This document shows, piece by piece, positions 3,867 through 42,895 of a DNA stretch of 64,000 bases. The notes under the pieces are model-generated. The model saw only the letters and a list, made by a program, of their open reading frames with translations, was not told where the DNA came from and made no database searches. The stretch covers positions 1 through 64,000 of the IMG/VR virus record IMGVR_UViG_3300042731_002679; one strand, given 5' to 3'. Both the position numbers and the translations under genes were made by a program. Numbering within the stretch: position 1 is the stretch's first letter; the number at the start of each line of letters is the position of its first letter. The DNA is from a virus.

Positions 3867-3989
3867 GGGCCTGGGGCTCCAATCGAGGGATCGAAATTCG
3901 CCTGGAGGTAGGCCCGTCAGCGCTGGAGGGGGCGGCGCGTCGTGGGCTTACTTTGAGAATTACCACGTCCCGCCGCCATTTTTTTCTGC

Positions 3990-5330: not shown

Positions 5331-5333
5331 GGA

Positions 5334-5546: not shown

Positions 5547-5551
5547 GTGAC

Positions 5552-6448: not shown

Positions 6449-6460
6449 GGCATGACTCGC

Positions 6461-9310: not shown

Positions 9311-9969
9311 GCTTCGCCTTTTCTGCGAAAGAGGTAGTTCTCGGAATACTCCCCGATGAGGTCGTGACCTGGCAGCAGGGCGATCAGTTCGTCAAGCGTC
9401 GGATAGCCGAGGTACAACTGACCGAAGGACTGCTGGTTGTGGCACTCCACGTAGACGTAGCGGGTGCGGGCAAGGACTCTCTGCCCGCCGCGCAGCACCT
9501 TGGCCTCGGCGCCCTGCACGTCGATCCATGCCAAATCGACGGGAATGGGCAAATCAAACGTGTTGTCTGCCCACTCGTCGAGAGTCGTCGTCGGCACCTG
9601 GATCGTGGAGTCGAACTTGCACCACGGGCTGTAGCTGAGGTGCCCAGTCGGCAGGCAGAGTGACCCGCTCTTGTCCCAATCTTGCCAGTCTTCCCGCTGG
9701 CAGTTCGGCGGCGTGCCGCCCGACTGGTAGAAGTCGAACTCTCCGCACTCGTCCGACAGGGCCATTTCAACGAGGGTGGCCCGGTTGCCGACGTTGGCGT
9801 GCCACTTGGCGATCGCCCGCGGATCGCACTCGAAGCAGTAAACGTGCGCGTCGGGCAACGCCTCGACGAACCGAAGCGTGTCCTCCCCGTCGTTGGCACC
9901 GATCTCCAAGATGGTCTGGGCGAACGGCCCGAGTAGATCGGGAAGTTCCTCGATGGGAAGTTCGGGCAT
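9307..9969 (-). CDS. FkbM-family methyltransferase
   Basis: 220 aa from the ATG at 9969. FkbM (Methyltransf_21) pattern: ILEIGANDGEDTLRF near residues 20-34 for SAM binding, VYCFECDP (43-50), and VDLAWIDVQGAEAKVLRGG, the family's DVQGxExxVLxG motif. FkbM enzymes O-methylate sugars and related hydroxyls, and sit in many surface-glycan clusters. Its start lies 2 nt after the stop of the upstream glycosyltransferase. Confidence 0.8.
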   Translation of the reverse strand: MPELPIEELPDLLGPFAQTILEIGANDGEDTLRFVEALPDAHVYCFECDPRAIAKWHANVGNRATLVEMALSDECGEFDFYQSGGTPPNCQREDWQDWDKSGSLCLPTGHLSYSPWCKFDSTIQVPTTTLDEWADNTFDLPIPVDLAWIDVQGAEAKVLRGGQRVLARTRYVYVECHNQQSFGQLYLGYPTLDELIALLPGHDLIGEYSENYLFRRKGEA

Positions 9970-10988: not shown

Positions 10989-11285
10989 ATGGACCAACAT
11001 CCCCCCCCGCAGCCCGCGGACTACTGCTGCAACCCCGGCTGCACGAGCGACGGCGAGCAGAAAATCGCCAAGGCCCGAGGAATCTGCAACAACTGCTATC
11101 AGGTCCTTCGCCGCATGATCGCATCGAGCGAAAGCAGCCTGTCCTCCTGGGAAGAGGCGGAAGACCTGGGCTGGTGCCGGCCCCCGCGGCAACCGGGCGA
11201 CACCCGTTTCGATGTGTCAGCTATTTCTGCAAAAAACACGGAATCACCCGACAAAAGTGCTCGTGATGCTTGTTCTGGAAACTGA
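10989..11285 (+). CDS. Small zinc-finger protein, first gene of the early operon
   Basis: 98 aa. Two Cys pairs, CCNPGC (residues 13-18) and CNNC (33-36), could bind one zinc ion. The rest is polar and helical, with a second small Cys-containing segment at the end. The ATG follows GAACGAGG. As the first gene after the promoter at 10909 it may be an early regulator; that is a guess from position. Confidence 0.55.
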   Translation: MDQHPPPQPADYCCNPGCTSDGEQKIAKARGICNNCYQVLRRMIASSESSLSSWEEAEDLGWCRPPRQPGDTRFDVSAISAKNTESPDKSARDACSGN

Positions 11286-11326
11286 CAAGCACTGGGAAAT
11301 CAAGACAACTTGCGCAAGGTGCGGGT

Positions 11327-12079
11327 ATGCGAATCCATCCAGCGGCAAAACTCTTCCCGCTCGACGACGGCGACAACCTGAAAGAGTTAGCCGCCGACAT
11401 TCAAGAGCACGGCCAGCAAGTGCCCATTGAAATCTTCGAGGGACAACTGCTCGACGGGCGACGGCGTTTAATGGCGTGCGAATCCCTGGGCATCGCGTGC
11501 AACTCCGTTGAGGTCGAACCGGAGGACCCCATCGCCTACGTCGTGTCGCTCAATGCCAAGCGGCGACACCTGACGCCGGCTCAGTTAGCCTTCGCAGCGG
11601 ACAGTGCGAGGTCGCTGTACGATGAGCAGGCAAAGGAACGCCAGAAAGCTACCCTCAAACGCGGCAACGCACAGCCCGATGTGACCTCTGGATCACAACG
11701 GGAAAACCAGGGCAAGTCCCGCGATCACGTTGGGGCCGTTTTTGGCGTGAGCGGTCAGTCTGTTGACCGTGCGAAGCGCGTTCGACAGCAGGGTATACCG
11801 GAACTGGAGTCTGCCGTCACGGCGGGCAAGGTGGCGCTGACACGGGCAGTGGAAATATCGCAACTGCCACGCGACGAACAGCCGGCAGCCCTGCAAGAAG
11901 CGATCACTGTAAAACGGCGGCAACGCCCCATAAAGCCACCGCCTGCCGGAAGCATTCGTGGCAAAGGCATTAGGCTTGCCCACGAAGCGATAGCCTGCCT
12001 GAAAAAGATTCCAAAAAACGACGCATTACGGAAGCGCGGCTTCCAGGTCGTAACCGACTGGATCAGGCACAACAAGTGA
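11327..12079 (+). CDS. ParB-like protein
   Basis: 250 aa from the ATG at 11327. The N-terminal 100 residues match the ParB/Sulfiredoxin fold: LKELAADIQEHGQQVPI, then LLDGRRRLMACESLGI, where DGRRR corresponds to the nucleotide-binding GERR motif. A helix-turn-helix-like stretch follows (VGAVFGVSGQSVDRAKRVR), then a basic C-terminal end. This is the usual order in plasmid or phage ParB proteins, but no ParA is in the window. It could be a partition protein, a DNA-binding regulator or a ParB-type nuclease. Confidence 0.75.
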   Translation: MRIHPAAKLFPLDDGDNLKELAADIQEHGQQVPIEIFEGQLLDGRRRLMACESLGIACNSVEVEPEDPIAYVVSLNAKRRHLTPAQLAFAADSARSLYDEQAKERQKATLKRGNAQPDVTSGSQRENQGKSRDHVGAVFGVSGQSVDRAKRVRQQGIPELESAVTAGKVALTRAVEISQLPRDEQPAALQEAITVKRRQRPIKPPPAGSIRGKGIRLAHEAIACLKKIPKNDALRKRGFQVVTDWIRHNK

Positions 12080-12088
12080 GGAACCATC

Positions 12089-12865
12089 ATGGCGAAGTCA
12101 GCAATCACGACAACAAAAAACTACAAGTTGTTTATGTTTAGCGATGAGAATCGCCCGCTTAACTTGAAGAAGCGGAAACGGCTCATGGAGTCGATGAAGC
12201 GGTATGGCTTTCTGCGGTCGTTCCCGATTTCGTGCTATCGCTCTAATGGCAAAATCGTGGTGAAGGACGGTCAGCACCGGCTGGCGGTAGCCGAGGAACT
12301 CGGCCTTTCTGTCCACTATTACGTCGATGATGTCGACTACGACGTTGCGTTCGTGAACGGCTGCCAAGAGAAATGGACCGTGCGCGACTATGCCATGAAG
12401 CACGCCAACGCTGGCATCAAACCGTATCAAGACGGGCTAGAGTTCTCCGACAGGTACGGCCTTCCCATCGGCGTCACGTTTGCCCTGCTGGCCGGCACCA
12501 CAACATTTGCCAACATCCAGCCCGCATTTGTCGATGGCACGTTCACGATCAAGGACATCGGATACGCATCGACCGTTGCGTCCACGTACCGAGCCTTGAT
12601 CGACCTGTCACCAGACATCAAAAATGCTCGCCTGATGGAAGCCTGCATGGCCGTCTGCCGCGTGCCAAAGTTCGACGCAACGAGACTTCTCACCGGGGCC
12701 AAGCGATGCCGGGATAAGCTGGTCGCCTACTCCACACGAGACGCCTACCTGGAACTGCTTGAAACCGTCTACAACTTTGGCCGCAAGGAACTGGTGCCGC
12801 TGAAAATCGAGGCAATCAATGCCATGCGAAAGCGGAGTCCTGTGCTCAAGCCCCCGAAGAAGTAG
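12089..12865 (+). CDS. Second ParB-like domain protein
   Basis: 258 aa, 9 nt after the first ParB-like gene. Residues ~30-80 have the ParB N-terminal pattern (KRKRLMESMKRYGFLRSFPI, then KIVVKDGQHRLAVAEELGL, with DGQHR in place of DGRRR). The remaining 170 residues are helical and show no clear helix-turn-helix. The two adjacent ParB-like proteins differ too much to be a recent duplication. Function unknown; a regulator or modified ParB. Confidence 0.6.
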   Translation: MAKSAITTTKNYKLFMFSDENRPLNLKKRKRLMESMKRYGFLRSFPISCYRSNGKIVVKDGQHRLAVAEELGLSVHYYVDDVDYDVAFVNGCQEKWTVRDYAMKHANAGIKPYQDGLEFSDRYGLPIGVTFALLAGTTTFANIQPAFVDGTFTIKDIGYASTVASTYRALIDLSPDIKNARLMEACMAVCRVPKFDATRLLTGAKRCRDKLVAYSTRDAYLELLETVYNFGRKELVPLKIEAINAMRKRSPVLKPPKK

Positions 12866-13204: not shown

Positions 13205-13957
13205 ATGAGTGAAACCGCCCTACTCAACACGGCCCTCGACGCCACCTACAACGCGCTCGATGGCAAACCAGAACCCGCGTCCTACGACCGCGAACAGCTT
13301 CTCAGTCTGATCCAGGGCAGCGCCGATTGGGAGGCGGCGAGAATCGGCCGAATCACCGGGTCACGCTTTGCCGACATTCTCACCCAGCCGCGGTCGAAAA
13401 AAGACAAGGAAGCCGGCGCCCTGTCGAAGACGGCCGAATCCTACATGCTCGACGTGATCGCCGAGCGACTGACCGGCGAGGCCCAAGAGGCTCCGATCCC
13501 CCAGCGCTACGTCGAGTGGGGCCACGAACACGAGCCCCACGCCCGGGTTGTGTACGAGGATTTGACCGGCAGTGAGGTCAAGCAGATCGGACTGCTGGCC
13601 CACCCGGACGACCTGAACATTGCCGGCAGCCCAGATGGGCTGGTTGGCGCAGACGGCGGCCTGGAAATCAAGTGCCCGTACAACAGCCGAGTCCATCTTG
13701 GCTACCTGCTGGGCGGCGTGCTGCCCAAAGAGTACGAGGCCCAAGTCCACGGCTACATTTGGATGTCCGGCCGCGACTGGTGGGATTTCGTGTCGTTCGA
13801 CCCGCGGTTTGTGGATGCCGGCCTGCACGTCGCCCTGTTTCGCGTTCGGGTGCTTCGCGACGACGACTGGTGCGCCCGGCTGGACGAGGCCGTGTTCGCG
13901 TTCCGCGACAAGCTGGAAGAAACTCTCCAAACCATTCGAGAAAGGACAGCGGCATGA
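13205..13957 (+). CDS. YqaJ-type recombinase exonuclease
   Basis: 250 aa, lambda-exonuclease-like PD-(D/E)xK nuclease. Segments: QGSADWEAARIGRITGSRF (37-55, the family's N-terminal signature), WGHEHEPHAR (105-114), AGSPDGLVG (140-148) with catalytic D144, and GLEIKCP (152-158) carrying the E-x-K pair; a QVHGYIW segment follows. It resects dsDNA 5' ends for the RecT annealase encoded next, whose ATG overlaps this stop. A 107-nt leader precedes the ATG and contains GC-rich stretches and GGA motifs. Confidence 0.85.
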   Translation: MSETALLNTALDATYNALDGKPEPASYDREQLLSLIQGSADWEAARIGRITGSRFADILTQPRSKKDKEAGALSKTAESYMLDVIAERLTGEAQEAPIPQRYVEWGHEHEPHARVVYEDLTGSEVKQIGLLAHPDDLNIAGSPDGLVGADGGLEIKCPYNSRVHLGYLLGGVLPKEYEAQVHGYIWMSGRDWWDFVSFDPRFVDAGLHVALFRVRVLRDDDWCARLDEAVFAFRDKLEETLQTIRERTAA

Positions 13958-15039
13958 GTACCGAACTACAGACCACGAAACCCCAAGCGACCGGCCTGCG
14001 AGCCTGGGTCGAGCGCCCCGGCGTCCCCGAACAGATCGAGGCGGCCCTGGGCGGCGTGATGGCCACCGACACGTTCACGCAGCACATGATGATCGCGTTT
14101 CAGGACCCGGACGTGGCCAGGTGTTCCGACAAGTCCAAGTACACCGCGTTGCACCAGTGCGCCGCGATGGGACTGTTGCCCACGCTCGATCAGGTCAAGC
14201 TGATCCCGTACAAGAATGAGGTCAAGGCCATGCCGCAGTGGCAGGGCTTCAAGGCGCTCATGGAGCGGAACCCGGACATCCTGGAAGTGACCGGGCACCT
14301 CGTCCACGTCACGGACCATTTCGAGATGCACAACGGCGTGCCGACCCACACCTTCAATCCGTTCGACGAGGCCCGGACGATTGCCGGCCCCAAGGACATC
14401 GTGGGCGGCTACTGCAAGATCGTCTACCGCGACGGTCGGCCGCCGAAGTACCATTTTGTGACCCGCAAGCACATCGAGAAGGCCCAGAAGTGCGCCCAGA
14501 CGCAGAAAATTTGGAGCGCGTGGTACGAGCAGATGGCCCTGAAGACGCTCTACCGCGACTGCTACGCACGCCGGGCCGTGGCGTTCGACCCGATGGTTGC
14601 CGACCGAGTGCAGCAGGCGATCGACCTGGACAACCTCAATATGGGCAACGACCCCCGGCGGGTCGAGCCCGACGCGATCGACAGCCTCCGCAAGCAGGCC
14701 CGTCTGGCACACCAGCAGCAGGAGGCCCCAGAAGACGCCCCGGAGCCCCCGGCGCCCGAAGAGGACCCCGAGCCGACCGAACAGCCCGGAGACGCTGAGG
14801 CGAGCCAGGAGGAACCGGAAGCGGGAGGAACGGAGTGGGTCTACGCCCACCTGGACCTGGGCAAGTTTCTCGACGACATCCCCCCGGGCTGGCGACACCA
14901 GCTTCGCGAATGCGATGATCCGGCCAAAGTGGAGTACCTCAAAGCCGCCGCCGGCCGGGACAAGCGGCTGACCGACAAGGCGGTCAAGGCGATCGTCGGG
15001 GCCTGCGACCGGATTCTGGCGGCAGAGATGGGAGGGTGA
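13954..15039 (+). CDS. recT: RecT single-strand annealing protein
   Basis: 361 aa. The core (1-~255) is RecT: YTALHQCAAMGLLPTLDQ, VKLIPYKNEVKAMPQWQGF, VHVTDHFEMHNG, GGYCKIVYRDGRPPKYHFV and WYEQMALKTLYR. The tail (~255-361) is an acidic Pro/Glu linker plus a short helical end, longer than in the minimal family. It anneals ssDNA made by the YqaJ nuclease; the two genes overlap by 4 nt (ATGA). Confidence 0.88.
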   Translation: MSTELQTTKPQATGLRAWVERPGVPEQIEAALGGVMATDTFTQHMMIAFQDPDVARCSDKSKYTALHQCAAMGLLPTLDQVKLIPYKNEVKAMPQWQGFKALMERNPDILEVTGHLVHVTDHFEMHNGVPTHTFNPFDEARTIAGPKDIVGGYCKIVYRDGRPPKYHFVTRKHIEKAQKCAQTQKIWSAWYEQMALKTLYRDCYARRAVAFDPMVADRVQQAIDLDNLNMGNDPRRVEPDAIDSLRKQARLAHQQQEAPEDAPEPPAPEEDPEPTEQPGDAEASQEEPEAGGTEWVYAHLDLGKFLDDIPPGWRHQLRECDDPAKVEYLKAAAGRDKRLTDKAVKAIVGACDRILAAEMGG

Positions 15040-27578: not shown

Positions 27579-27719
27579 TGAGTGTATGACTTCGGGCGAC
27601 TTGCCCGTGGTCCGTTCTTTGACAACCTATCCGAGTTTTCTGCCGATCGGCCGGCGAGTTTCAAGTTGAAACTGGTTGTTCTCGCCGATCGGTTCACCCG
27701 TAGCAAAGGGAGAGAGAGA

Positions 27720-28682
27720 ATGAAAGCCGTAAGCGCGATGGTCGCGGAGTTCGGCAACTTGTCGCGGGCGAAGCAAGAGAAGGGTATCGTGGACCGGGAG
27801 TTGTCGAAGGACAAGGCCGACCGGAACCATACCCGCGAACAGTCGGCGGCTGTCTATGCTGCCCTCTTGCACGCGACGCGGAACCCGGCAGAACAGGGTG
27901 ATTCGGCGGCTTTGTGTCGTCAGTCCCTATTCGCCCGACTGGCCGACAAGACTAAGAAGGACGGAAAAACCTTCTATACCTATGCAAAGCAAGGCTTCGC
28001 TATGGTGAAGGTTCCCCTTCTTGACCGCGACGGGATGACGGCGCAGCTACGCGAAGCTTGCCGGTTGCTGGAGTTCGACGACAAGGACTCCGACAATCCG
28101 GTGAGAGAGTGCAAGGCCGGCGCGTTGTCGAAGCTTTCCGGGTTCTTGGCCGACTGTGAGTCGGACAAGGACAAGGACGGTTCCGCGGCAGAGTTCCGCA
28201 AGATTGCGGAGACTGTCAAGCCGCGTGCGGGTCGTGAGCCGCGGACGGGTGGAACGGAAGCCCCGAAGGATTCGCCGAATCCGGTTGAGGGCGAACCCGG
28301 CTTGACTTCCCGCCCTGAAGGATTCGCCACGGACCCGTTTATCCGCATGCTGGCGAAAATGCGGGGCGATGCTGCCACCGATACCGTTTACAAGCTCTCC
28401 GAAGTGGTGGCAGGGCATGAGGAAGTGGAAGCGCTTATCATGTCGCAACTGGCAGCTATCCGTGATAGCTGGAGTACTTCGGTGGAGGGATTCGCCAAGT
28501 GGGAGTGGTTTGTGGATGCGGTCACGCATGAATGTTCCACACACTTCACCGAAGCGCGTCTGGAAGCGCTGCAGGAAGCCGAAGCCGCCAGCAAGGGTGA
28601 GGCGAAGCGCAAGGCCGAGAAGCTCCGCAAGGGCGGAGCTACTCCCCAGGAAGTCGAAGAAGCGCTTGCGGGCGCGGCATAG
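27720..28682 (+). CDS. Unknown protein, monocistronic, own promoter
   Basis: 320 aa from the ATG at 27720, behind GGGAGAGAGAGA. Not recognised. Residues 1-~140 are helical and basic (SRAKQEKGIVDRELSKDKAD); the middle is acidic and disordered (CESDKDKDGSAAE, then EPRTGGTEAPKDSPNPVEG); the C-terminal third is helical with a final charged coiled-coil stretch (LEALQEAEAASKGEAKRKAE). A good promoter, long leader and strong terminator at 28691 mean it is expressed alone. Candidate: a DNA-binding or host-takeover protein; no direct evidence. Confidence 0.6.
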   Translation: MKAVSAMVAEFGNLSRAKQEKGIVDRELSKDKADRNHTREQSAAVYAALLHATRNPAEQGDSAALCRQSLFARLADKTKKDGKTFYTYAKQGFAMVKVPLLDRDGMTAQLREACRLLEFDDKDSDNPVRECKAGALSKLSGFLADCESDKDKDGSAAEFRKIAETVKPRAGREPRTGGTEAPKDSPNPVEGEPGLTSRPEGFATDPFIRMLAKMRGDAATDTVYKLSEVVAGHEEVEALIMSQLAAIRDSWSTSVEGFAKWEWFVDAVTHECSTHFTEARLEALQEAEAASKGEAKRKAEKLRKGGATPQEVEEALAGAA

Positions 28683-28690
28683 TCAACCTA

Positions 28691-28723
28691 CCCCCTGCCC
28701 TACCTTGGGCAGGGGGTTTGCTT
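28691..28723 (+). terminator. Rho-independent terminator
   Basis: CCCCCTGCCC (28691-28700) pairs with GGGCAGGGGG (28707-28716) over 10 bp with a 6-nt loop, then TTTGCTT. It follows the stop at 28682 by 8 nt. Confidence 0.8.
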
Positions 28724-28783
28724 ATGCGCTTTTCTGGAGTGTGCAAGCAAACCCCCTGTATTCTCGATTATTGTCAATTCTGT

Positions 28784-28811
28784 TTGACATACCCCCCTGC
28801 CGTGGTAGAAT
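28784..28811 (+). promoter_or_regulatory. Sigma70-like promoter of the small-gene array
   Basis: TTGACA (28784-28789), 16-bp spacer starting TACCCCCC, TAGAAT (28806-28811). The first bases after TTGACA (TACCCCC) are the same as in the promoter at 35891. A TACCCC/GGGGTA inverted repeat spans spacer and -10 (28790-28818). It leads into a 25-codon leader ORF and then the array of small genes. Confidence 0.65.
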
Positions 28812-28827
28812 AGGGGTATCGTCGAAC

Positions 28828-28905
28828 ATGAGTGAGGCGGTTGTGAATTTTCAAGCGGCGCGCGGTTGTCCCGTCTGCCGCTTGCTCCCTTGGCAGCGAT
28901 GCTAA
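28828..28905 (+). CDS. Short leader peptide candidate
   Basis: 25 aa (MSEAVVNFQAARGC then PVCRLLPWQRC). It is the first ORF after the promoter at 28784, with little ribosome-binding sequence. The segment TCAAGCGGCGCGCGG inside it (28851-28865) recurs exactly at 28944-28958 just before the next gene. It may be a translated leader or just spacer. Confidence 0.35.
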   Translation: MSEAVVNFQAARGCPVCRLLPWQRC

Positions 28906-28982
28906 GGTTTTCTTGTGCGCCGTGTTCGCGGGTTTGCGAACGGTCAAGCGGCGCGCGGCCCCGTAGCTTGGAGGGTGGAATC

Positions 28983-29243
28983 ATGGCAGTTCTCAGACTG
29001 GTGCGGGTGTATTTCCGGCCGGAGGATCATCCGGCGGTGCGCCCGGGGATCATCGCCAAGACCTTGCGCGAATTTCCAGCGGCCGATGGTCTGGAGTTGC
29101 ACGACGACTCGGACGTTGTGCGGATCATTGACCGGAAGGGTCGCGCGGTTTCCTGCGATGGCGAGCAGTATGTCGCGGTAATCAACCGGCGGCACGAATC
29201 GGACGGTCGCGGGTGTTTCGTGCCCGCGGCGCTGTACGGGTGA
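28983..29243 (+). CDS. Hypothetical protein
   Basis: 86 aa, behind the start-associated motif (GGAGGGTGGAATC before ATG). Looks like a small alpha/beta protein (MAVLRLVRVYFRPEDHP, VVRIIDRKGRAVSCDGEQY). Not recognised. Confidence 0.55.
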   Translation: MAVLRLVRVYFRPEDHPAVRPGIIAKTLREFPAADGLELHDDSDVVRIIDRKGRAVSCDGEQYVAVINRRHESDGRGCFVPAALYG

Positions 29244-29254
29244 AGGGAGGCGTC

Positions 29255-29482
29255 ATGGACTTTCCGATCTACAACCAGATTGTCGAATTGCCCGATGGGC
29301 GCTGGCAGGCGTTTTTGCAGTCGGCGTCGGGCGCAGTCCACCAGAAGCGCTTCCGGTTGCTGGAAGAGGCGCAAGCGTGGGCGAAACACCGGGCTTTGAC
29401 CGCTCTGCCGCGGGAAAACTGGGTGAGCGAGATCATTTCCCTGGACGCCGCGCTCTTCTGCCGCGGCTACCTGATCTTCTAG
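29255..29482 (+). CDS. Hypothetical protein
   Basis: 75 aa; AAGGGAGG precedes the ATG. Compact alpha/beta composition (QIVELPDGRWQAFLQSASG, then EEAQAWAKHRALTAL). Not recognised. Followed by a GCGGCC/GGCCGC hairpin and the next start motif. Confidence 0.55.
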   Translation: MDFPIYNQIVELPDGRWQAFLQSASGAVHQKRFRLLEEAQAWAKHRALTALPRENWVSEIISLDAALFCRGYLIF

Positions 29483-29546
29483 CGCGGCCCGCGTGTGGCC
29501 GCGTTTCTGTTTCCTGTCCCCCGTAGCTCTATTGGAGGGTGTAGCG

Positions 29547-29732
29547 ATGAAACGCTGGAATGTGATGCAGTTTCGGGCTTCGGCGATGTCCTGGTTCTGG
29601 GTGGATCAGGTCGAAGCCCGCAGCCCGCGTGAAGCGGCGAGGATCGCCCGCGCGAAGCATCCGGGCCTGGGGCTGCTCGTGAAAGTGGTGGCGACCGATC
29701 TGGTGGCCGAGCCGGTTCGGGTGGCTGGCTGA
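29547..29732 (+). CDS. Hypothetical protein
   Basis: 61 aa behind the start-associated motif (29521). MKRWNVMQFRASAMSWFWVD then VEARSPREAARIARAKH; the last part resembles the amphipathic helix of small RNA- or DNA-binding phage proteins. Not recognised. Confidence 0.55.
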   Translation: MKRWNVMQFRASAMSWFWVDQVEARSPREAARIARAKHPGLGLLVKVVATDLVAEPVRVAG

Positions 29733-29733
29733 C

Positions 29734-29784
29734 GACCTGGCCGTGAGGGGCTCGGCATCGCGCTGAGCCCCGATCGGGCTGGCC
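29734..29784 (+). repeat. Intergenic hairpin module, copy 1
   Basis: GACCTGGCCGTGA, then the stem GGGGCTC (29747-29753) with GAGCCCC (29765-29771), then GGGCTGGCC. One of five related modules that share GACC(C/T)GGCC...stem...GGGCC and lie directly before the next gene's start motif. Confidence 0.55.
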
Positions 29785-29832
29785 GTTGGTGCGGCTGGTT
29801 GCTGTTTTCCTGTAGCCCTGGAGGATGAAGTT

Positions 29833-30015
29833 ATGGCGAAATTGGACCTGGACGAAATCATGGCGGCGTGCGAATCGGGCGACAACATGGGCTTTTGCAC
29901 GGCCTGCGGGGCCGAAGCCTACGGCGTGGAACCGGACGCCCGCCGTTACGAGTGCGAAGAGTGCGGCGCCCGGGCGGTGTACGGGGCCGAAGAGTTGCTG
30001 ATCGGTTGCATCTGA
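29833..30015 (+). CDS. Zinc-ribbon protein
   Basis: 60 aa. CTACG (22-26) and CEECG (40-44) make a Cys4 zinc ribbon; the rest is acidic. Behind a start-associated motif. Likely protein or nucleic-acid binding; not recognised further. Confidence 0.6.
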   Translation: MAKLDLDEIMAACESGDNMGFCTACGAEAYGVEPDARRYECEECGARAVYGAEELLIGCI

Positions 30016-30020
30016 CGTGC

Positions 30021-30080
30021 GACCCGGCCGTGAGGGCTTCGCTTTGCCGAACGGTGAAGCGGAGCCCGACCGGGCGGGCC
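30021..30080 (+). repeat. Intergenic hairpin module, copy 2
   Basis: GACCCGGCCGTGA, stem GGGCTTCGCTT with AAGCGGAGCCC, then GGGCGGGCC. The most regular of the modules; followed by the start motif of the gene at 30131. Confidence 0.55.
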
Positions 30081-30130
30081 GGCGGCGTGCTGGCCCTCGG
30101 TGTTTCCCGTAGCAAGGGAGGATGTTCTCT

Positions 30131-30469
30131 ATGACACGCAAGGCCAAGGTTCTCTACGTGTTCCTGGCCGACGATGAGTGGGGCAACTTCGCGATGGAGC
30201 AGGTTGCCCAGGTCGCGTTCCACAAGTATCCGTGGCTGGACGCCGTGCATGTGTACAAGCACGGCGGCTGGTGGCTGATGTGGGACCGCGATCTAAACAT
30301 CGTCGGTACGGCGAACGACATGGCCCGGATGAGCGAAGCCGCGAACGAGTTCTGGCGTGCCTATCCCGACTACGAGATTGTGGCGACCGTTCGCCGCGAT
30401 CAGCCTGGTTGGGAGTGGCCCGAACTGAACCGTCGAGCGGAGCGCGAACGAGAGGGGGTGGCCGCATGA
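30131..30469 (+). CDS. Hypothetical protein
   Basis: 112 aa; an upstream ATG (30122) is part of the GGAGGATG motif. Features KVLYVFLADDEWGNFAMEQV and WWLMWDRDLNIVGTAND, mostly alpha/beta, ending in a basic segment (RRAEREREGVAA). Not recognised. Confidence 0.55.
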   Translation: MTRKAKVLYVFLADDEWGNFAMEQVAQVAFHKYPWLDAVHVYKHGGWWLMWDRDLNIVGTANDMARMSEAANEFWRAYPDYEIVATVRRDQPGWEWPELNRRAEREREGVAA

Positions 30470-30681
30470 GAGTCGCCCTCGAAGTGAACGTAATGCGGCT
30501 TCGGTTCGACCCGGTGATGAATCGCCCGACGCTGTTCGTGTGCCTCACCCTCATCTGGTGGACGTTCTGGTTCCAGTGGTGGGACACGGAGCGATGCCGG
30601 GACAAGCGGATTCTTTGGCGCAGTTGGGACCGGCTCATGTGCGCCACTGGAGGGGTGCATGTTCATCGAAGCAGCGTATGA
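30466..30681 (+). CDS. Small Trp-rich protein, possibly membrane-anchored
   Basis: 71 aa; a hydrophobic, Trp-rich segment (LFVCLTLIWWTFWFQWW) sits in the middle and the end is basic (RDKRILWRSWDR). ATGA overlap with the previous gene, 23-nt overlap with the next. Function unknown. Confidence 0.45.
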   Translation: MRVALEVNVMRLRFDPVMNRPTLFVCLTLIWWTFWFQWWDTERCRDKRILWRSWDRLMCATGGVHVHRSSV

Positions 30682-30895
30682 ACGACCGGACCCGCGCGCC
30701 GAGTGCGCTGCCCGCATGGCCCGCAACGGGTCGCATCTGGGCAAGCCGGCGAACAACGAGTCGGCCGATTACTACTGCGTGGACGGGAAGGTGTGGCTGA
30801 TTACGCCGGAGCGATCCGTGCTGTTGGGCTGCTACTTCCTGTTTATGAACGAAGTGCGGCTCGGGATTCGAGCCGTCTCGCCGCCTGGAGACTGA
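30659..30895 (+). CDS. Hypothetical protein
   Basis: 78 aa from an ATG with GGAGGGG upstream. MFIEAAYERPDPRAE, then KVWLITPERSVLLGCYFLF. Not recognised. Followed by the intergenic module at 30899. Confidence 0.5.
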   Translation: MFIEAAYERPDPRAECAARMARNGSHLGKPANNESADYYCVDGKVWLITPERSVLLGCYFLFMNEVRLGIRAVSPPGD

Positions 30896-30898
30896 GAC

Positions 30899-30957
30899 CT
30901 GCGCTGCCGACCCGGCGTGCCGCTCCGGTCCCCCGACCGAGGCGGCGCAGCGGGCCG
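30899..30957 (+). repeat. Intergenic hairpin module, divergent copy
   Basis: CTGCGCTGCCG pairs with CGGCGCAG and the segment ends AGCGGGCCGA, as in the other modules, with GACCCGGC inside. It is more divergent than the other four copies. Confidence 0.4.
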
Positions 30958-30998
30958 ATGGGCGGTTCGCGTGTCACCTGTAGCGAAAGGATGAATCC

Positions 30999-31214
30999 AT
31001 GCAAGCGTACCTCAAGCCCGGCAGCGGGTACTGGGACATCACGGTTCTCGGTATCGGCGGGCACTTCCGGCGGGTCGGCGAGAACCGGATGCCGGTTCAC
31101 GACATCGAGGTGATCCCGAAGTGGCGCGGCGTAGACCGCAAGGCGATCACCGACGACGGCCGAAAGGTGGCTTTCCAGTCTTACCTGCTGGAGGAGGTTG
31201 CCGATGAGCATTGA
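30999..31214 (+). CDS. Hypothetical protein
   Basis: 71 aa behind a start-associated motif (30977). Small beta-rich protein (GYWDITVLGIGGHFRRVG, then PVHDIEVIPKWRGVD). Not recognised; overlaps the next gene by 11 nt. Confidence 0.5.
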   Translation: MQAYLKPGSGYWDITVLGIGGHFRRVGENRMPVHDIEVIPKWRGVDRKAITDDGRKVAFQSYLLEEVADEH

Positions 31215-31446
31215 CTGGGAGCAGATCGAACAGGAGGACCGGCTGTGGCCGTGGTTGGCCGATGGGTCGATGGGCGATGAAACCTGCGATCCATCGTTCG
31301 ACGACCTCTACGGCGATCCCGAGCCTTACTACTTCTGCGATTCGTGCGACTGCGGCTTGTCGGACGATGAAGCGGAGGGCGACAAGTGCCCCGAGTGCGG
31401 GGCGGTGTTCGACAACGAGAACCCGCTGGTGACGAACGGAGGATGA
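31204..31446 (+). CDS. Acidic zinc-ribbon protein
   Basis: 80 aa, very acidic. CDSCDCG (45-51) and CPECG (63-67) form a zinc ribbon with CxxC-x14-CxxC spacing. The ATG overlaps the previous gene. Not recognised further. Confidence 0.55.
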   Translation: MSIDWEQIEQEDRLWPWLADGSMGDETCDPSFDDLYGDPEPYYFCDSCDCGLSDDEAEGDKCPECGAVFDNENPLVTNGG

Positions 31447-31447
31447 A

Positions 31448-31615
31448 ATGATCTACTTTTGCATCCGTGGAGTTCGATGCAATCCCAAAACCCGATGCAA
31501 CTGGATTCCGGCCAGTTGCCTGGAGCGATCTGCGCGATGGACTCACTACGCCCATTCCTACAGGGCGTGGACCTATGCCCCATGCGAAACGACACGAGCG
31601 GCGATCTTCGGATAG
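31448..31615 (+). CDS. Small Cys-rich hypothetical protein
   Basis: 55 aa starting at an ATG directly after GGAGGATGAA. MIYFCIRGVRCNPKTRCNW then PASCLERS; five cysteines in all. Not recognised. Followed by the module at 31618. Confidence 0.4.
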   Translation: MIYFCIRGVRCNPKTRCNWIPASCLERSARWTHYAHSYRAWTYAPCETTRAAIFG

Positions 31616-31617
31616 CC

Positions 31618-31672
31618 GACCCGGCCCCGAGGCGTCTTAGAACGATCTAAGGCGCCGAGGGAGCGGGCCGAC
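31618..31672 (+). repeat. Intergenic hairpin module, copy 4
   Basis: GACCCGGCCCCGA, stem GGCGTCTTAGA...TCTAAGGCGCC, then GGGAGCGGGCCGAC. The GGCCC near the start can pair with GGGCC at the end, closing the structure. Confidence 0.6.
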
Positions 31673-31739
31673 CCGCGAACCGGGCCACCGGGTTGACAGG
31701 TGGCAACGATCGAACGCCCTATGGGCAGGAGACGCAGCG

Positions 31740-32045
31740 ATGGCACGGTATCGGATGGACGACGGCAGCGTGGTGGACACCGACAGGGCCACGCAGTCGT
31801 GGGAGGAGGAGACCGATTGGGACGGTAGGAACCACATCAGCCGGGCGACCGGCTCGCAGTGGGACCACGAGACCCTGTATCGGTCCCGTAAGGGGCGGTA
31901 CTACGTCGAGCACACCTCCCAGTGGCAGGGCAGCCGGCCGCACGTCGAGTGGCTCAGCCCCGAAGCGGCGGCCCGGTGGCTGCTGCTGATGGACGAGGAA
32001 CTGCCGGAGGACCTGGCGCAGTACGCCGACGAGATCATCGAGTAG
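31740..32045 (+). CDS. Conserved small hypothetical protein
   Basis: 101 aa. TLYRSRKGRYYVEHTSQW and EAAARWLLLMDEELPEDLAQY are segments seen in small bacterial and phage proteins (a short beta hairpin with a C-terminal helix). Function unknown. Followed by the module at 32049. Confidence 0.6.
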   Translation: MARYRMDDGSVVDTDRATQSWEEETDWDGRNHISRATGSQWDHETLYRSRKGRYYVEHTSQWQGSRPHVEWLSPEAAARWLLLMDEELPEDLAQYADEIIE

Positions 32046-32048
32046 CGC

Positions 32049-32100
32049 GACCCGGCCCCGACCCCTCCGGTGTGAGCGGAGGGGAAGGGAGCGGGCCGAC
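32049..32100 (+). repeat. Intergenic hairpin module, copy 5
   Basis: GACCCGGCCCCGA, stem CCCCTCCG with CGGAGGGG, then GGGAGCGGGCCGAC. Same frame as copy 4 but a different inner stem, which suggests that the stem structure, not its sequence, is kept. Confidence 0.6.
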
Positions 32101-32138
32101 TGAGAGCCCGCGTTCCTGTAGCAAGGGAGGATGAGCGA

Positions 32139-32897
32139 ATGGAAACGAAGACGCGGCGGGTCCGCATCGTGCAAGACTGCGATGCCGACAGCCCGCGGAC
32201 CTGGGACAACATGGGCGTCATGGCCTGCTGGCACAGCCGGTACACCCTTGGCGACGAACAGCCGAAGGTGGACTCCGGCGAGTGGCTGCGCGACCTGGCT
32301 GTCGAAGCCTGCCCCCGGCTCGGTGAAATCATCGAGTATTGGGAGAACGAGGGCTGGGACTGGTTGCAGTCGAAGCTCGGCACGTACAGTGAGGCCGACC
32401 AAGCGATCATTCCCCACCTCGACGACCTCATCGGTCGTGTGCTGGTCAAGCATTTCGTGATCCTGCCGCTGTACCTGTACGATCACAGTGGCATCACGAT
32501 GAACGTGGGCGGGTTTTCCTGCCCGTGGGACAGTGGCCAAGTGGGCTACATCGTGTGTTCGCTCTCGAAAGCCCTGGAGTGCTGGCTTCTCTCGGAGGGC
32601 GATTGGGATACCGAGGTCGAGTACACCGATGGGCCGGTCACTCTGCGGGAAGGGACCACGCGCAACCTCAAGTGCGAAGTGGAGACCTACGCCCAGTTCC
32701 TCGAAGGCAACGTGTACGGGTTCATCGTGGAAGAGTGCGAAGAGTGCGACTGCTGCGGTCACGCCGAGTGGGAGCACGTCGATTCGTGCTTCGGCTTCTA
32801 CGGCTACGACCCCGAAGAGAACGGCATGGCGGATCATCTCGACGATGATCTGCTGGAGATGGCCAAGGACGCGGAACCCGAGTATCGGAGATACTGA
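32139..32897 (+). CDS. Conserved phage hypothetical protein
   Basis: 252 aa with the start-associated motif before it. DADSPRTWDNMGVMACWHSR (15-34) and YDHSGITMNVGGFSCPWDSG are hallmark segments of a protein family common in large phages; residues ~200-230 add CEECDCCGHAE, a possible zinc site. No function is established that I know of. Confidence 0.6.
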   Translation: METKTRRVRIVQDCDADSPRTWDNMGVMACWHSRYTLGDEQPKVDSGEWLRDLAVEACPRLGEIIEYWENEGWDWLQSKLGTYSEADQAIIPHLDDLIGRVLVKHFVILPLYLYDHSGITMNVGGFSCPWDSGQVGYIVCSLSKALECWLLSEGDWDTEVEYTDGPVTLREGTTRNLKCEVETYAQFLEGNVYGFIVEECEECDCCGHAEWEHVDSCFGFYGYDPEENGMADHLDDDLLEMAKDAEPEYRRY

Positions 32898-32900
32898 CCC

Positions 32901-33296
32901 ATGAAGCAGAACCCACCCAACGCCCGGTTCTGGGTGTACCTCAACGGCAGCCCGGTCAAGCTGACGCTTCGGCCGGGCGCGGAGTTGCACCACTACTGGG
33001 GTGAGCCGAACGACGAGGGCGGCTGGTCGAGCGCGGCGCATCGCTGGGAGTACGTGGTCAACGACCCGGACTTCCCGCCGCATGTGCTGCGAGAGTGTAC
33101 CATTGACGGCCGCGATTGCGACGGTCGTTTGACGCAACACTACGACTCGGTATGCTCGGTGGAAGACCTGGCGGCCCACGTTGTCGAGGGGGCCGAGTAC
33201 AAGGACTTTCACGACGGGCGGGAGATTTGCTACCCGAAGTGGGAGCGGACGACCGCTTGGAACCGCGACGAGTTCGCGGAAGCGATGGGGTACTAA
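32901..33296 (+). CDS. Hypothetical protein
   Basis: 131 aa, 3 nt after the previous gene. Compact beta-rich text (NARFWVYLNGSPVKLTLR, then ELHHYWGEPNDEGGW). Not recognised. Confidence 0.55.
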   Translation: MKQNPPNARFWVYLNGSPVKLTLRPGAELHHYWGEPNDEGGWSSAAHRWEYVVNDPDFPPHVLRECTIDGRDCDGRLTQHYDSVCSVEDLAAHVVEGAEYKDFHDGREICYPKWERTTAWNRDEFAEAMGY

Positions 33297-33336
33297 CGGG
33301 CCGCGTGGCCCTTTCTTTCCTGTAGCATGAGGACCA

Positions 33337-33525
33337 ATGCAAATGGACAACCAATGGTGTGTGCTGGTCAAGAACGACCCTATCGTGTCGGTCGGCCAGT
33401 CTGTCGCCGGTCCCTTTGACTCGGCTGGCAAAGCAGAAGGGTGGATCGCGGAGGACTTGGACATCAACAATGATGTGCGGGACAACTACCTCATTCTGCC
33501 TTTCTTCGATACGCGGGACGACTGA
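33337..33525 (+). CDS. Hypothetical protein
   Basis: 62 aa with the start motif at 33319. WCVLVKNDPIVSVGQSVAG then PFDSAGKAEGWIAEDLDI; looks like a small alpha/beta fold. Not recognised. Confidence 0.5.
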   Translation: MQMDNQWCVLVKNDPIVSVGQSVAGPFDSAGKAEGWIAEDLDINNDVRDNYLILPFFDTRDD

Positions 33526-33563
33526 TCGTTACTACTTTTCCTGTAGCATGAGGAGGATGAAGA

Positions 33564-34157
33564 ATGAGCAAAGTGACCGAGGCGATTGATCGGCTCGCAG
33601 AAACCCCGAGCCGACCGGCCGACGAGTTCTGGACTCACGAGCAGGCCCAGGCTTCGATCAACGAGTTCTGGGAGGTGCGAACCGACAAGTCGATGAGCGA
33701 GGATTCGCGGGCCGAGCGGTGCGCGGAGATCATCGCTAGCTCGAAGCCGATTCGGAACGTGTCAGAGAACGACAGCGGCAACACGGTGGTCCGCTCGAAC
33801 GCCGATTCGCTGGGGGTATCCCACGAGCGGTACGTGTTCGACTTCGACGACGACTTTCGAGCGGCCGGGTGGTTGCAGTTCGACACGAACCAGGACGCCT
33901 GGTACTTCGGCGTGTGGGTCAATCCCAAGACCTTTCAGACATTGACCTACGCGGAGGGCGACGTGACGCTGGTATTGTGCCGCGATGCCGAGCACTACAA
34001 CGCCGAGATTCGTGATGCGTGCGATTTCTACGGCGAGGGGTTTCAATTCTTGGAGTGCAACATGGAAGGTCTGCAAAGCGTGCTGCTGGGAACGCATGAC
34101 CGAGACGCTTCGGTTGTGGCCCATCGTCAGCAGCGGGAGAAGTTCCTGGTTTCGTAA
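33564..34157 (+). CDS. Hypothetical protein
   Basis: 197 aa behind the last clear start-associated motif (33540). Acidic, alpha/beta (DEFWTHEQAQASINEFW, VFDFDDDFRAAGWLQFD). Not recognised. Followed by a terminator at 34156. Confidence 0.55.
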   Translation: MSKVTEAIDRLAETPSRPADEFWTHEQAQASINEFWEVRTDKSMSEDSRAERCAEIIASSKPIRNVSENDSGNTVVRSNADSLGVSHERYVFDFDDDFRAAGWLQFDTNQDAWYFGVWVNPKTFQTLTYAEGDVTLVLCRDAEHYNAEIRDACDFYGEGFQFLECNMEGLQSVLLGTHDRDASVVAHRQQREKFLVS

Positions 34158-34213
34158 CACCCCACCACGAACCCGCCCTCGCAAGGGGGCGGGCTGTTGT
34201 GCGGTGTTTCTTC
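34156..34213 (+). terminator. Terminator after the small-gene array
   Basis: Inner stem CCCGCCC/GGGCGGG (34172-34178 with 34187-34193) inside an outer AACACC/GGTGTT, then TCTTCT. It ends the gene array that begins at 28983. Confidence 0.65.
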
Positions 34214-34240
34214 TCACCTCGTAATACGAAGGAGGATGTG

Positions 34241-39251: not shown

Positions 39252-39533
39252 ATGGCAACACGAAGCGCTGACGGATACCAACTTTTCTACGGGGCGTTCG
39301 TCTACATCCGGGTTGGCGGCGAGTATCCCCCTGGCAGGTATCGCGCAAGTTCCATGAAGATCGCGTCGATCAACCCAAACCGACGCAAGAGCCTGCGTTT
39401 AGAGCCGCCCCCGGATTCTGGCAGGACAAAGGGCTGCTGGCGATCACCCGACGAGGTGTACCGCAACGGAGACGTTGCCAGGGGGCTGAGGCCCAATGGT
39501 TCACAGCGACAGGAGGATGCCCATGCAAGCTAA
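39252..39533 (+). CDS. Short hypothetical protein
   Basis: 93 aa from an ATG 1 nt after the previous stop. Basic (PNRRKSLRLEPPPDSGR). Its last 11 nt overlap the helicase start. Not recognised. Confidence 0.4.
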   Translation: MATRSADGYQLFYGAFVYIRVGGEYPPGRYRASSMKIASINPNRRKSLRLEPPPDSGRTKGCWRSPDEVYRNGDVARGLRPNGSQRQEDAHAS

Positions 39534-41745
39534 GACACTCGACGACTACCTCGCCCGCTACGGCGGTCTCATCGCCGCCAAGACGGCCGAGGCGTTCGTG
39601 CCACTCCACGTCCCCAGCCGGGACAAACCCTGGCACGTCGAACTGGAACGTGCCCCCTTCGGCGCCCAAGCCCACGCCATGACGGCCATCGCCAAGGCGT
39701 GGGACAAGCGGAAAAGCATCATGCTGATCGCCGAGATGGGGACCGGCAAGACGCTCATGGGAATTGCCGCCGCCCACATGCACGCTCGGGGCAAGCCCTA
39801 CCGGGCCATCGTCATGGCACCGGATCACCTGCCCAAGAAGTGGTGCCGGGAAATCCAAGAGACGATTCCCGGGGCGACGACCAGGATCATCAAGACCTGG
39901 AAGGATGTCGTCCGCATGACAACCGACCCGCCCACCGGGTCCGAGTGGGTTGTGATCGGCCGCAACAAGGCCAAGCTGGGGGCCAAGTGGAAGGCCGCCT
40001 ACTGGAAGGCCAAGGCGTGCTTCAAGTGGGAAGGAACCCGCTACCAGCCCGAGACTCTGCGTTGCCCGTCCTGCGGTGCCCCGCTCATCAAGAAGATCGA
40101 GGAAGATGGACGGACATCGTTTTGGGAAGTCGCCGAACTGGACAAGACCAAGCGGGCTTGCCGGGACTGCGGCGGCGCCCTCTGGCAGTACCACGGCGAA
40201 CTGCGGCGCTGGGCTCCGGCGCAGTACATCCACAAGCACCGGAAGAACTACTTCGACTACTTCGTGCTTGATGAGTGCCACGAGGAGAAGGGGGAGAACA
40301 CTGCCCAGGGCCTTGCCGCCGGAAGCCTGGCCGCTGCCTGCAAGCGGGTGATCGCCCTGACCGGGACGCTCATCGGAGGGTACGCCCACCACATCCGGCC
40401 CCTGCTGTTCCGCCTCGCCCCGCACTCCCTGGTCGAAGAAGGACTGGGATGGAAGGACTCGACGGAGTTTAATCGGCGCTATGGCCGCCTGGACACGATC
40501 ATCACCCAGAAGGACGGTACCGTGGTAAGCAACCGGCAGTCCCGTGGGTCCAAACGGAACAAGGACGAGAAGGTACGGCCCGGGGTGATGCCCACGCTCT
40601 ACGGCCGACACCTGATCGACAACACCGTGTTCCTGTCGCTGTCCGAGGTGGCCGCCGGTCTGCCGGGGCTGCACGAGGACGCCATCGCCGTGCCCTTGCC
40701 GCCCGACCTGGAAGGGGCCTACAAGGTGGTCGAGGACGATCTCAAGGAAGAGGTCAAGCGGATGATGCGGAAGCGAAACACCCGCCTGCTGGGGACGATG
40801 CTGCAAACCCTGCTGGCTTACCCAGATTACCCATACGACTGGAAGGAGATCGGCTACTACGACAAGGACGAGGACTCGGGCACGATGCGGTGGGTCGGCG
40901 TGACCACGCCCCTGAACTTCCCCAAGTCCCGAAGCTACGATCCGAAGGAAATGAAGCTGCTGGAAATGGTGAAGGAAGCCAAGGCCAACGGGCATCAAAC
41001 CTGGGTGTACGTCCAGTTCACCGACAAGCGGCCCGTGCCCGACCGGCTGCTGGCGATGTTCGAGAAGCACGGCATCAAGGCGAAGTGGCTCAAGTCGTCC
41101 GTCCAGTTGGCCAAGCGGGAGGACTGGATCACCGAACACGGCAAGGACGTGGACGTGGTGATCTCCCACCCGAAGCTGGTGGAGACCGGGCTGGACCTGT
41201 TCGACAAGGGAGGCGGCCACAACTTCTCCACGCTGATCTTCTACGAGACCGGCTACGCCCTGTTCACCCTCCGGCAGGCGGCACGCCGGGCATGGAGAAT
41301 CGGGCAGCGGCGCAACTGCAAGACCTACTACCTCTACTACCAGAACACCATGCAGGAACGGGCGATGGAACTGATGGGCAAGAAGCTCACCGCCTCGCTC
41401 GCCCTGGAAGGACAGTTCTCCGAGGAAGGGCTGGCCGCCATGACCGAAGACTCCGGCTCGGTGGAAATGGAATTGGCCAAGTCGCTGTCGAACAACCTGG
41501 AGTTCGGAGAGACCCAGCGGGTGTGGGAGAAGGCGGGCCAGGCAGCCAGGAGAAGCAACGTCACCCCGCAGTCTCTACGCAAGGCCAGGGAAAGGCTGCG
41601 CAAACGAAGAAAGTCGTTGACACAAGCCAACGGCAATGGACAATTACCACCACCTGCACCACCGGGGGACGACGAGGAACTCTCTGCCGCCGATCGCCTT
41701 CGCCGCCGACTGAAGCGCCGCAAAGTCAACTGCTTCGCTTCCTAA
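39523..41745 (+). CDS. SNF2-type superfamily 2 helicase
   Basis: 740 aa from the ATG at 39523, 6 nt behind GGAGG. Motor motifs: Walker A LIAEMGTGKTLMG (68-80), DECH in YFVLDECHEEKG (246-257), ALTGT (278-282, motif III), and RQAARRAWRIGQRRN near the end (motif VI with arginine finger). Between motifs I and II a zinc module holds CPSC (181-184) and CRDC (213-216), an insertion not present in most family members. The C-terminal ~100 residues are basic. It may translocate on DNA together with the methyltransferase at 37438. Confidence 0.85.
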   Translation: MQAKTLDDYLARYGGLIAAKTAEAFVPLHVPSRDKPWHVELERAPFGAQAHAMTAIAKAWDKRKSIMLIAEMGTGKTLMGIAAAHMHARGKPYRAIVMAPDHLPKKWCREIQETIPGATTRIIKTWKDVVRMTTDPPTGSEWVVIGRNKAKLGAKWKAAYWKAKACFKWEGTRYQPETLRCPSCGAPLIKKIEEDGRTSFWEVAELDKTKRACRDCGGALWQYHGELRRWAPAQYIHKHRKNYFDYFVLDECHEEKGENTAQGLAAGSLAAACKRVIALTGTLIGGYAHHIRPLLFRLAPHSLVEEGLGWKDSTEFNRRYGRLDTIITQKDGTVVSNRQSRGSKRNKDEKVRPGVMPTLYGRHLIDNTVFLSLSEVAAGLPGLHEDAIAVPLPPDLEGAYKVVEDDLKEEVKRMMRKRNTRLLGTMLQTLLAYPDYPYDWKEIGYYDKDEDSGTMRWVGVTTPLNFPKSRSYDPKEMKLLEMVKEAKANGHQTWVYVQFTDKRPVPDRLLAMFEKHGIKAKWLKSSVQLAKREDWITEHGKDVDVVISHPKLVETGLDLFDKGGGHNFSTLIFYETGYALFTLRQAARRAWRIGQRRNCKTYYLYYQNTMQERAMELMGKKLTASLALEGQFSEEGLAAMTEDSGSVEMELAKSLSNNLEFGETQRVWEKAGQAARRSNVTPQSLRKARERLRKRRKSLTQANGNGQLPPPAPPGDDEELSAADRLRRRLKRRKVNCFAS

Positions 41746-42022: not shown

Positions 42023-42895
42023 ATGCCCCAAATCTACGGCTACGCACGAGCAAGCACGAAGAAGCAAGAGGACTCGCCGACCGTGCAGGCCGACAAGATC
42101 GTGGCCAGGGCCACGCAACTGATCGAGGACGACCCCACGCTGTCGCCCCTGGACCCCGAAGAACACATCGCCTCCGAACACAAGTCGGCCGACCGAATCT
42201 CATGGGAAGACCGACCGGCCTTTCAGTCGCTCATGCGGACGATCGAAGAAGGAGACGTGCTGATCGTCACCCACTACGATCGCCTCGACCGCAACCCGCT
42301 ACGGTTCATCGCCTGCCTTGCCGAGCTACAAAGGAAGAAGATCAGGCTGATCCTGCTGAACTGCGACTTTATGATGCTCAACAAGGAGTTCGATCTGGAC
42401 GATGCCCAGTGCGTGTTCCTCGCCTTCCAGTGGGCCTTGTTTCTGAAGATGTGGTCCGACTACAACAGGCAGCGCCTCCTCGACATGAACGTCTGGCTGA
42501 AAAAACAAGGGCGGTGCCGAGGGCGAGTGCCGTTCGGCATGGTGGCCTACAAGAAAACGGACGGCAAATACTACCTCCGCTGGGACAAGCAGCAATGCAC
42601 CTACATGCTGGAACTCTACAACCGAATCCAGTGTGGCGAGACGTTCATTGAAATCGGACACGACTGGCACCAACGCGGGCTCACTCGCCAGCGAGTTCCC
42701 GGGGGTGAACCGGAGCCCTGGGTGGCACGCAACTCCCGCTGCGACCGGAACAACCCGAAGTGGCAGCCCCACGCCCACCGGATAAAGGACGCCTACAAGC
42801 GAGCCGCCAAGATGATCGAAGAAGAGGGCATGGTCGGCTGCGTGCCCTACGATCCTACCGTGGGAGTTGAGTACGCATGTTCTGCAACTCCTTGA
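42023..42895 (+). CDS. Serine recombinase (resolvase/invertase type)
   Basis: 290 aa behind GGAGGATGAGTAG. N-terminal catalytic domain: YGYARASTKKQEDSP (5-19) with nucleophile S11 and the arginine R9, then VLIVTHYDRLDRNPLRF (79-95), the conserved DRxxRN. A longer C-terminal part (~135-290) contains a RCRGRVPFGMVAYKKTDG segment and a recombinase-type end, but is shorter than in large serine integrases (~450-700 aa). Possible roles: integration, DNA inversion or resolution. The gene is last in the plus-strand block and its 3' end overlaps the convergent gene by 41 nt. Confidence 0.8.
   Translation: MPQIYGYARASTKKQEDSPTVQADKIVARATQLIEDDPTLSPLDPEEHIASEHKSADRISWEDRPAFQSLMRTIEEGDVLIVTHYDRLDRNPLRFIACLAELQRKKIRLILLNCDFMMLNKEFDLDDAQCVFLAFQWALFLKMWSDYNRQRLLDMNVWLKKQGRCRGRVPFGMVAYKKTDGKYYLRWDKQQCTYMLELYNRIQCGETFIEIGHDWHQRGLTRQRVPGGEPEPWVARNSRCDRNNPKWQPHAHRIKDAYKRAAKMIEEEGMVGCVPYDPTVGVEYACSATP

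Follow-up and report, generated by a model that had tools for sequence, protein, structure and literature searches.

The stretch of viral DNA analysed in this study (hereafter the window) represents 64 kb of the 68,303-base linear virus record IMGVR_UViG_3300042731_002679 (G000; GC content of the window, 61.7%), and carries at 28983-34157 of the plus strand an array of 15 small genes in nine blocks [note that the 15 gene starts were picked by hand]. At the borders of these blocks we identified two repeated elements, a start-associated motif, CCYGTAGC, upstream of the ATG, and a hairpin module shortly behind the stop codon of the preceding gene. All nine array gaps of at least 38 nt carry the motif, the module or both, while neither is found at any of the six short or overlapping junctions (gap of 11 nt or less), where there is no room for the motif. 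The original prediction for this DNA, that a repeated element punctuates the gene blocks, was thus upheld.

The start-associated motif

The motif is present at eight of the nine array starts preceded by such a gap, the exception being the start at 31740, which has a module instead. Nine plus-strand copies of CCYGTAGC were detected between 27697 and 33547, together with one minus-strand copy at 35940 without relation to an ATG. In the motif search, nine copies were observed within 27601-33700 against a mean of 0.126 (maximum 2 in 500) after dinucleotide shuffling, and GGA and then ATG follow downstream of all nine, against 0.006 expected from dinucleotide shuffles of the same region. The form CCCGTAGC was found at 27697-27704 (gene 27720-28682), 28960-28967 (gene 28983-29243), 29520-29527 (gene 29547-29732) and 30106-30113 (gene 30131-30469), and the form CCTGTAGC at 29809-29816 (gene 29833-30015), 30977-30984 (gene 30999-31214), 32115-32122 (gene 32139-32897), 33319-33326 (gene 33337-33525) and 33540-33547 (gene 33564-34157), all on the plus strand. 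The eight genes previously proposed to follow such a motif indeed do so, and the copy at 27697, outside the range then considered, adds a ninth. The motif does not, however, end at the ATG as had been claimed, its first base being located 18-27 nt from the true start codon.

The Shine-Dalgarno half varies among the nine motifs, being GGAGGATG in four, GGAGGGTG in two, and AAAGGATG, AGGACC and GGGAGAGAG in one each, and CCC in the motif goes together with GGG in the Shine-Dalgarno (4 of 4 versus 1 of 5; Fisher 0.04). The ATG within GGAGGATG is not the start codon, with one possible exception at 30122, in frame with 30131. The sequence GGAGGATG also lies upstream of six genes that lack CCYGTAGC (36416, 37237, 37426, 39239, 39512 and 42010); since it is the general Shine-Dalgarno of this genome, CCYGTAGC represents the specific part, and its position suggests that it acts in translation initiation. 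In no examined record besides G000 was a comparable cluster of this motif found, and the two matches obtained after strict motif search of viral contigs, L085 and L086, were rejected as chance, both being single copies without a second such motif. An inverted repeat, CCGATCGG..GCGAG / CTCGCCGATCGG, at 27640-27704 adjoins the first start motif on its upstream side, and a possible decayed tenth start motif (CACCTCGTAATACGAAGGAGGATG) lies 3' of a strong GC hairpin within 34158-34240.

Hairpin modules behind stop codons

The five gaps predicted to carry a hairpin module were all found to do so, the folding z-scores ranging from -3.2 to -6.0. The modules are located on the plus strand at 29734-29784 (M1; 1 nt after the stop codon of 29547-29732; inner stem of 10 bp), 30021-30080 (M2; 5 nt after that of 29833-30015; 15 bp), 30909-30956 (M3; 13 nt after that of 30659-30895), 31618-31669 (M4; 2 nt after that of 31448-31615; 11 bp) and 32049-32097 (M5; 3 nt after that of 31740-32045; 8 bp). 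The distance of 1-13 nt 3' of a stop codon thus applies to all five modules in the window, and also to all three others examined. Each forms a single hairpin, composed of a CCYG/CGGG base (with a U-U mismatch in M1), an internal loop, in four of the five a short CCC/GGG or CCG/CGG stem as the second one, a GA-containing loop, and an inner stem of 8-15 pairs, the inner stems being unrelated in sequence. The 3' end is GCGGGCCGAC in most copies, and CCGA is present on both flanks of most copies. A structure descriptor run over the window detected M1-M5 plus one poor match on the minus strand at 8175. No match to Rfam 15 was obtained in the window at the curated threshold, two weak matches (E 1.7 and 2.7) being present in the region, and the hairpin seems to represent a structured RNA family not yet listed.

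The claim that the inner stems differ and yet keep pairing was confirmed by strong covariation. For five sequences, 98.5% of the pair cells are standard and 5 of the 13 pairs show double changes; no more than one shuffle in 500 scored as high, and pairing with slid partners dropped to 34-56%. After addition of M1-M3 the values were 96.1% and 9 of 13, for an alignment fitted to the model. When the coding-strand folds of nine modules were compared, the inner stems contained eight G-U against one A-C (one-sided p 0.02); the two modules of the viral contig L195, which are paralogous, showed 5:0 and 3:0. The coding-strand fold is stabler by at least 3 kcal/mol in M1, M2, M4 and both L195 modules, while in five others the strands differ by no more than about 2.5 kcal/mol in one or the other direction, and in M3 they are equal. 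The preference of the inner stems for G-U over A-C when read on the coding strand makes mRNA the most likely form in which the hairpin acts, and on balance the inner stem appears to be maintained on the mRNA strand.

No T-run was detected directly 3' of the module in any of the eight modules checked, and none of the five module gaps contains a promoter-like match, indicating that the module is neither an ordinary terminator nor a promoter of the type found in the extended start-associated sequences (ESAS) of mycobacteriophages described below. Two gaps without module contain small terminator-like hairpins on the plus strand, a GGCC hairpin followed by a T-rich tract at 29481-29505 and a GGGCC/GGCCC hairpin followed by TTTCTTT at 33298-33311.

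Module copies and possible cassette units in other phages

The module recurs, with different inner stems, in four further phage contigs or contig pairs, which is new to this study. A scan of viral contigs with a loose module pattern yielded at least 119 loci, and a strict pattern yielded 5, of which L240 was rejected as a chance match without the module fold. A covariance model, built from five module sequences not including M1-M3, recovered M2, M1 and M3 at E 0.0012, 0.034 and 0.04, and, among 79 other phage loci totalling 1.38 Mb, gave no match with an E-value of 5 or lower. This model was run on 116 of the 119 pattern loci, so that the module-bearing contigs counted represent a lower bound; E-values in these loci are biased because the loci were selected by the module pattern. 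True copies outside the window were recognized with the strict pattern in L101 (= L241), L123 and L163, and with the model in L195; L099 gave a model match at E 0.008 in a locus likewise pre-selected by pattern. The outside copies carry GACCCGGCCCCGA and AGGGAGCGGGCCGA exactly, 27 nt of the module base are conserved between different contigs, and the base is near-identical in records G000, G016/G019, G017 and G018. Of the 30 matches to the strict pattern in the collection of 84,980 species genomes, not one is flanked by CCGA on either side together. Matches in 8 of 392 Planctomycetota genomes were all discarded, being inside open frames of at least 408 codons and without the module fold. Phage and plasmid collections gave weak matches only, and no true module was present in the two annotated-phage matches inspected (H12 and H42), of which H12 overlies a gene of the other strand.

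We regard the carriers as different phages. G017 and G018 are distantly related, several proteins being 30-58% identical, and G000 has only gene 31740 in common with G018 and one protein with G016. Over 14 kb, the records G016 and G019 show 99.97% identity and no gene gain or loss, and they were counted once.

The duplication in L195 (record G421) is the best evidence that leader, gene and hairpin may form a cassette unit. This contig gave two model matches (E 0.00011 and 0.0085 in the pattern-selected loci; 2.3e-5 and 0.0017 when its own record was searched), and carries one small gene in two copies, of which the proteins are 72% identical. A leader, AACAGCC..GGCGGAGGTGA, precedes both gene copies and a module follows each, the conserved block of the module starting at the gene's own TAG, and the local alignment of the copies spans from the leader start to the module 3' end. 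Between the two copies lies a third gene, which is preceded by the same leader and terminates in the 5' half of a module, fused to the next leader. One of the two modules has a longer apical insert than the other, indicating that the tip of the module evolves quickly while the base stays.

Gene 31740-32045, flanked by M4 and M5 on the plus strand, has a homologue in L163 (55% identical) with a module on the 5' side and a weaker one on the 3' side (E 2.6); the genes upstream of this border in the window and in L163 lack similarity at E 1e-4. In L250 and L251 the homologues lack a module but retain a similar leader directly before the start (GC-rich mini-hairpin or remnant plus AGGAG), so the module is linked to this gene in some phages only. 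The idea of gene cassettes was thus strengthened, by the L195 duplication and by the shared gene 31740 with dissimilar upstream genes. A role of the elements in adding genes found no support, neither insertion junctions nor empty sites being observed.

Phages bearing the module seem to have leaders of their own. In L101/L241 (records G016 and G019), AGGGGCAYT occurs four times after stop codons, twice extended as TACGGGGCTCAGACAAAAGG, and ACAAAAGGAACCGAAACGATGAC is repeated. In L005 (record G001), AGGAGAAAAAC occurs five times within 3822-9944, mostly directly upstream of start codons, as a third phage-specific start leader. Two remnants of the module 3' half (GCGGGCCGAC..AGCCCG) at 7438 and 7769 of L005 flank gene 7481-7768, of which a homologue is present in G016 (48% identical). 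L005, considered as a close relative, has only two proteins in common with the window at E 1e-4, and no close relative was found; the 252-aa gene 3' of M5 (32139-32897, plus strand), with homologues in many phages, is 59% identical in L005.

Elsewhere in the window are encoded a DnaB-like helicase, a second helicase, a weak portal match, a RecT-like annealing protein (13672-15039), a ParB-like protein and a serine recombinase (Resolvase domain, 42032-42511; the sole match among three recombinase/transposase families searched), from which the window represents a tailed-phage genome or fragment. The ParB-like protein is the second of two adjacent proteins at 11270-12865 in common with G421 (45% and 56% identical), possibly plasmid-like prophage partition genes. 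Three proteins at 5552-9310 on the minus strand gave glycosyltransferase-family matches (GT11, GT2 and GT25-like). No nucleotide relative of the 28-36 kb region was found in the annotated phage collection, and protein searches with the products of 60999-62621, 33564-34157 and 39496-41745 gave no relatives. A sigma-70-like candidate promoter for the array (TTGACA-16-TAGAAT with a TG preceding the second hexamer; agreement with the consensus at 11 of 12 positions) is predicted at 28784-28811 on the plus strand.

Interpretation and comparison with known systems

We propose, at an even chance as judged from sequence, that motif and module together constitute a boundary element in a polycistronic mRNA, combining a 3'-end or processing hairpin with a standard translation start. 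The 15 small phage genes, in nine blocks, would then form a single rightward operon, in which five borders have as their 5' part a structured RNA hairpin just after the stop codon of the preceding block, and eight have as their 3' part a start leader, composed of CCYGTAGC and a strong Shine-Dalgarno, upstream of the following ATG. In mRNA, the hairpin would serve as a 3'-end, processing or insulation signal, so that each block of a single long transcript is maintained and translated on its own, and the leader would supply each block with the same kind of translation start. Since both ends are standardised, the leader-gene-hairpin unit could be a cassette that is duplicated or swapped between phages, the simplest route being recombination at the repeated ends; a RecT-like annealing protein is encoded, as noted above. 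We infer the RNA function, the decay or processing role and the recombination route from these arrangements. The reading as a control element is well supported by structure, while the cassette reading rests on one good case; that leader, small gene and stop-anchored RNA hairpin represent an undescribed phage cassette format, exchanged or duplicated across lineages, is possible but doubtful.

Several observations weigh against this proposal. The motif occurs without module in four of the eight motif-bearing array gaps, and gene 31740 has a module without motif; in contrast to the inner stems, the conserved base alone shows slightly better pairing when the opposite strand is folded; the hiding of the Shine-Dalgarno by a motif hairpin (CCY with RGG) was dismissed, the upstream bases being no better than random (combined p 0.14 and 0.85); and the two L195 copies might stem from an old local duplication and not from the movement of a cassette. 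In addition, T-rich terminator-like hairpins in three gaps (29481, 29777 and 33298) are compatible with attenuation, the main rival, in which the 3' strand GCGGGCC would pair either with the CCCG on its upstream side or with a second hairpin further downstream, and thereby set the level of read-through to the next block. A second hairpin, GCGGGCCGA-n-GCCCG/CCCGC/CCGC, can be drawn at M4, M5, both L163 modules, L123, one L195 module (L195B) and the two L005 remnants, and 7 or 8 T are present in the 15 nt before four of the nine motifs, a level found in 2.3% of the 15-mers of the region. However, the energies of the second hairpin are mostly in the range of shuffled downstream sequences (nine modules, fractions 0.017-0.70), L101 lacks it, the module itself has no T-run behind, and the M3 and M5 gaps are without a good T tract. 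Since the stability of the second hairpin mostly does not leave the range given by shuffling, we prefer a 3'-end, processing or insulation signal, and consider the attenuator or terminator switch rather unlikely.

The position near stop codons, the paired boxes split by internal loops and the variable terminal stem, together with the two copies of gene plus hairpin in L195, would also suit a folded single-strand recombination site like the attC of integrons, at which a recombinase gains and loses cassettes behind each gene. We regard this as improbable, since the module 3' end lacks the GTT of attC, the genes upstream of the border shared at gene 31740 are unrelated, neither tyrosine recombinase (PF00589) nor Y1 transposase (PF01797) was found in any of the four records searched, all of which may be fragments, the only recombinase found is the serine type in G000, and the bias of the inner stems is toward the coding strand, the bottom strand being the one used by attC (PMC5371416, available portion). 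Insertion near stop codons of a selfish mobile hairpin without function for the phage, similar to repetitive extragenic palindromes (REP) or miniature inverted-repeat transposable elements (MITE), is quite improbable too. The modules are intergenic, scattered over otherwise different phages and mostly flanked by CCGA on both sides, but the stems are fully different among copies of one genome, unlike fresh insertions, the Y1 transposase missing from the four possibly fragmentary records is the one of the REP-associated (RAYT) type, and no true copy was present among the 30 genome-contig matches, the 392 Planctomycetota genomes and the two annotated-phage matches inspected. Ordinary GC-rich intergenic hairpins arising by chance might be expected from the base composition of the window and the self-complementary GGCC; the 27-nt conserved base across contigs, the clear covariation and the lack of any match at E 5 or better in the 79 phage loci make this explanation hardly credible.

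How phages gain small accessory genes without damage to expression is an old question, for which a border signature in several phages offers a handle. If the boundary element marks the ends of cassettes, these can be listed from sequence, and both RNA function and exchange become directly testable; accessory genes would then come equipped with their own start and end signals.

In Cluster K mycobacteriophages, the start-associated sequences (SAS) are repeats that precede gene starts in a single orientation and are tied to large gaps of the non-structural region (Pope et al. 2011, PMC3203893; the available portion of this and of the other sources cited is meant throughout), and 188 cluster K phages have been surveyed (PMC12699233). 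The available portion of PMC3203893 proposes for SAS and ESAS roles in translation start or DNA binding, and not the gene acquisition that the original prediction had referred to SAS, so that this attribution is a loose one. CCYGTAGC agrees with SAS as a short one-orientation repeat right before starts (nine of nine plus-strand copies before ATG), located in a non-structural region, tied to gaps of more than 50 bp and exceeding a Shine-Dalgarno in size. It differs in sequence, being CCYGTAGC plus a GGAGG-type element instead of the 13-bp GGGATAGGAGCCC with at most two changes, and in distance, 18-27 nt from the first base of the ATG versus typically 3-7 bp from repeat to start. The module likewise resembles ESAS as a longer two-armed element, the latter being situated upstream of SAS in about half of cases; the ESAS arms are, however, 17-bp repeats of fixed sequence with uncompensated changes, said not to support RNA pairing (PMC3203893), while the module stems differ and covary. 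The ESAS of Adephagia hold SigA-like promoters (PMC11373665), for which no match was detected in the five module gaps. By analogy, CCYGTAGC appears to work like SAS without being a SAS member by sequence.

Integron attC sites are located at the end of each cassette gene, as are the modules here, and carry a conserved GTT triplet at the cleavage site. The modules end in GCGGGCCGAC in most copies, without a terminal GTT. They share with attC the paired boxes, spacer loops and variable terminal structure, and differ in their preference for the coding instead of the bottom strand (PMC5371416). No phage hairpin family of this kind was matched by title or abstract start among open-licence PubMed Central (PMC) papers. 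Hairpins processed by RNase III are situated between the early genes of phage T7. The modules are similar to these in that several irregular hairpins lie between small early genes of one transcript, and differ from them in that a conserved base carries a free inner stem and is common to different phages, processing being putative in the present case.

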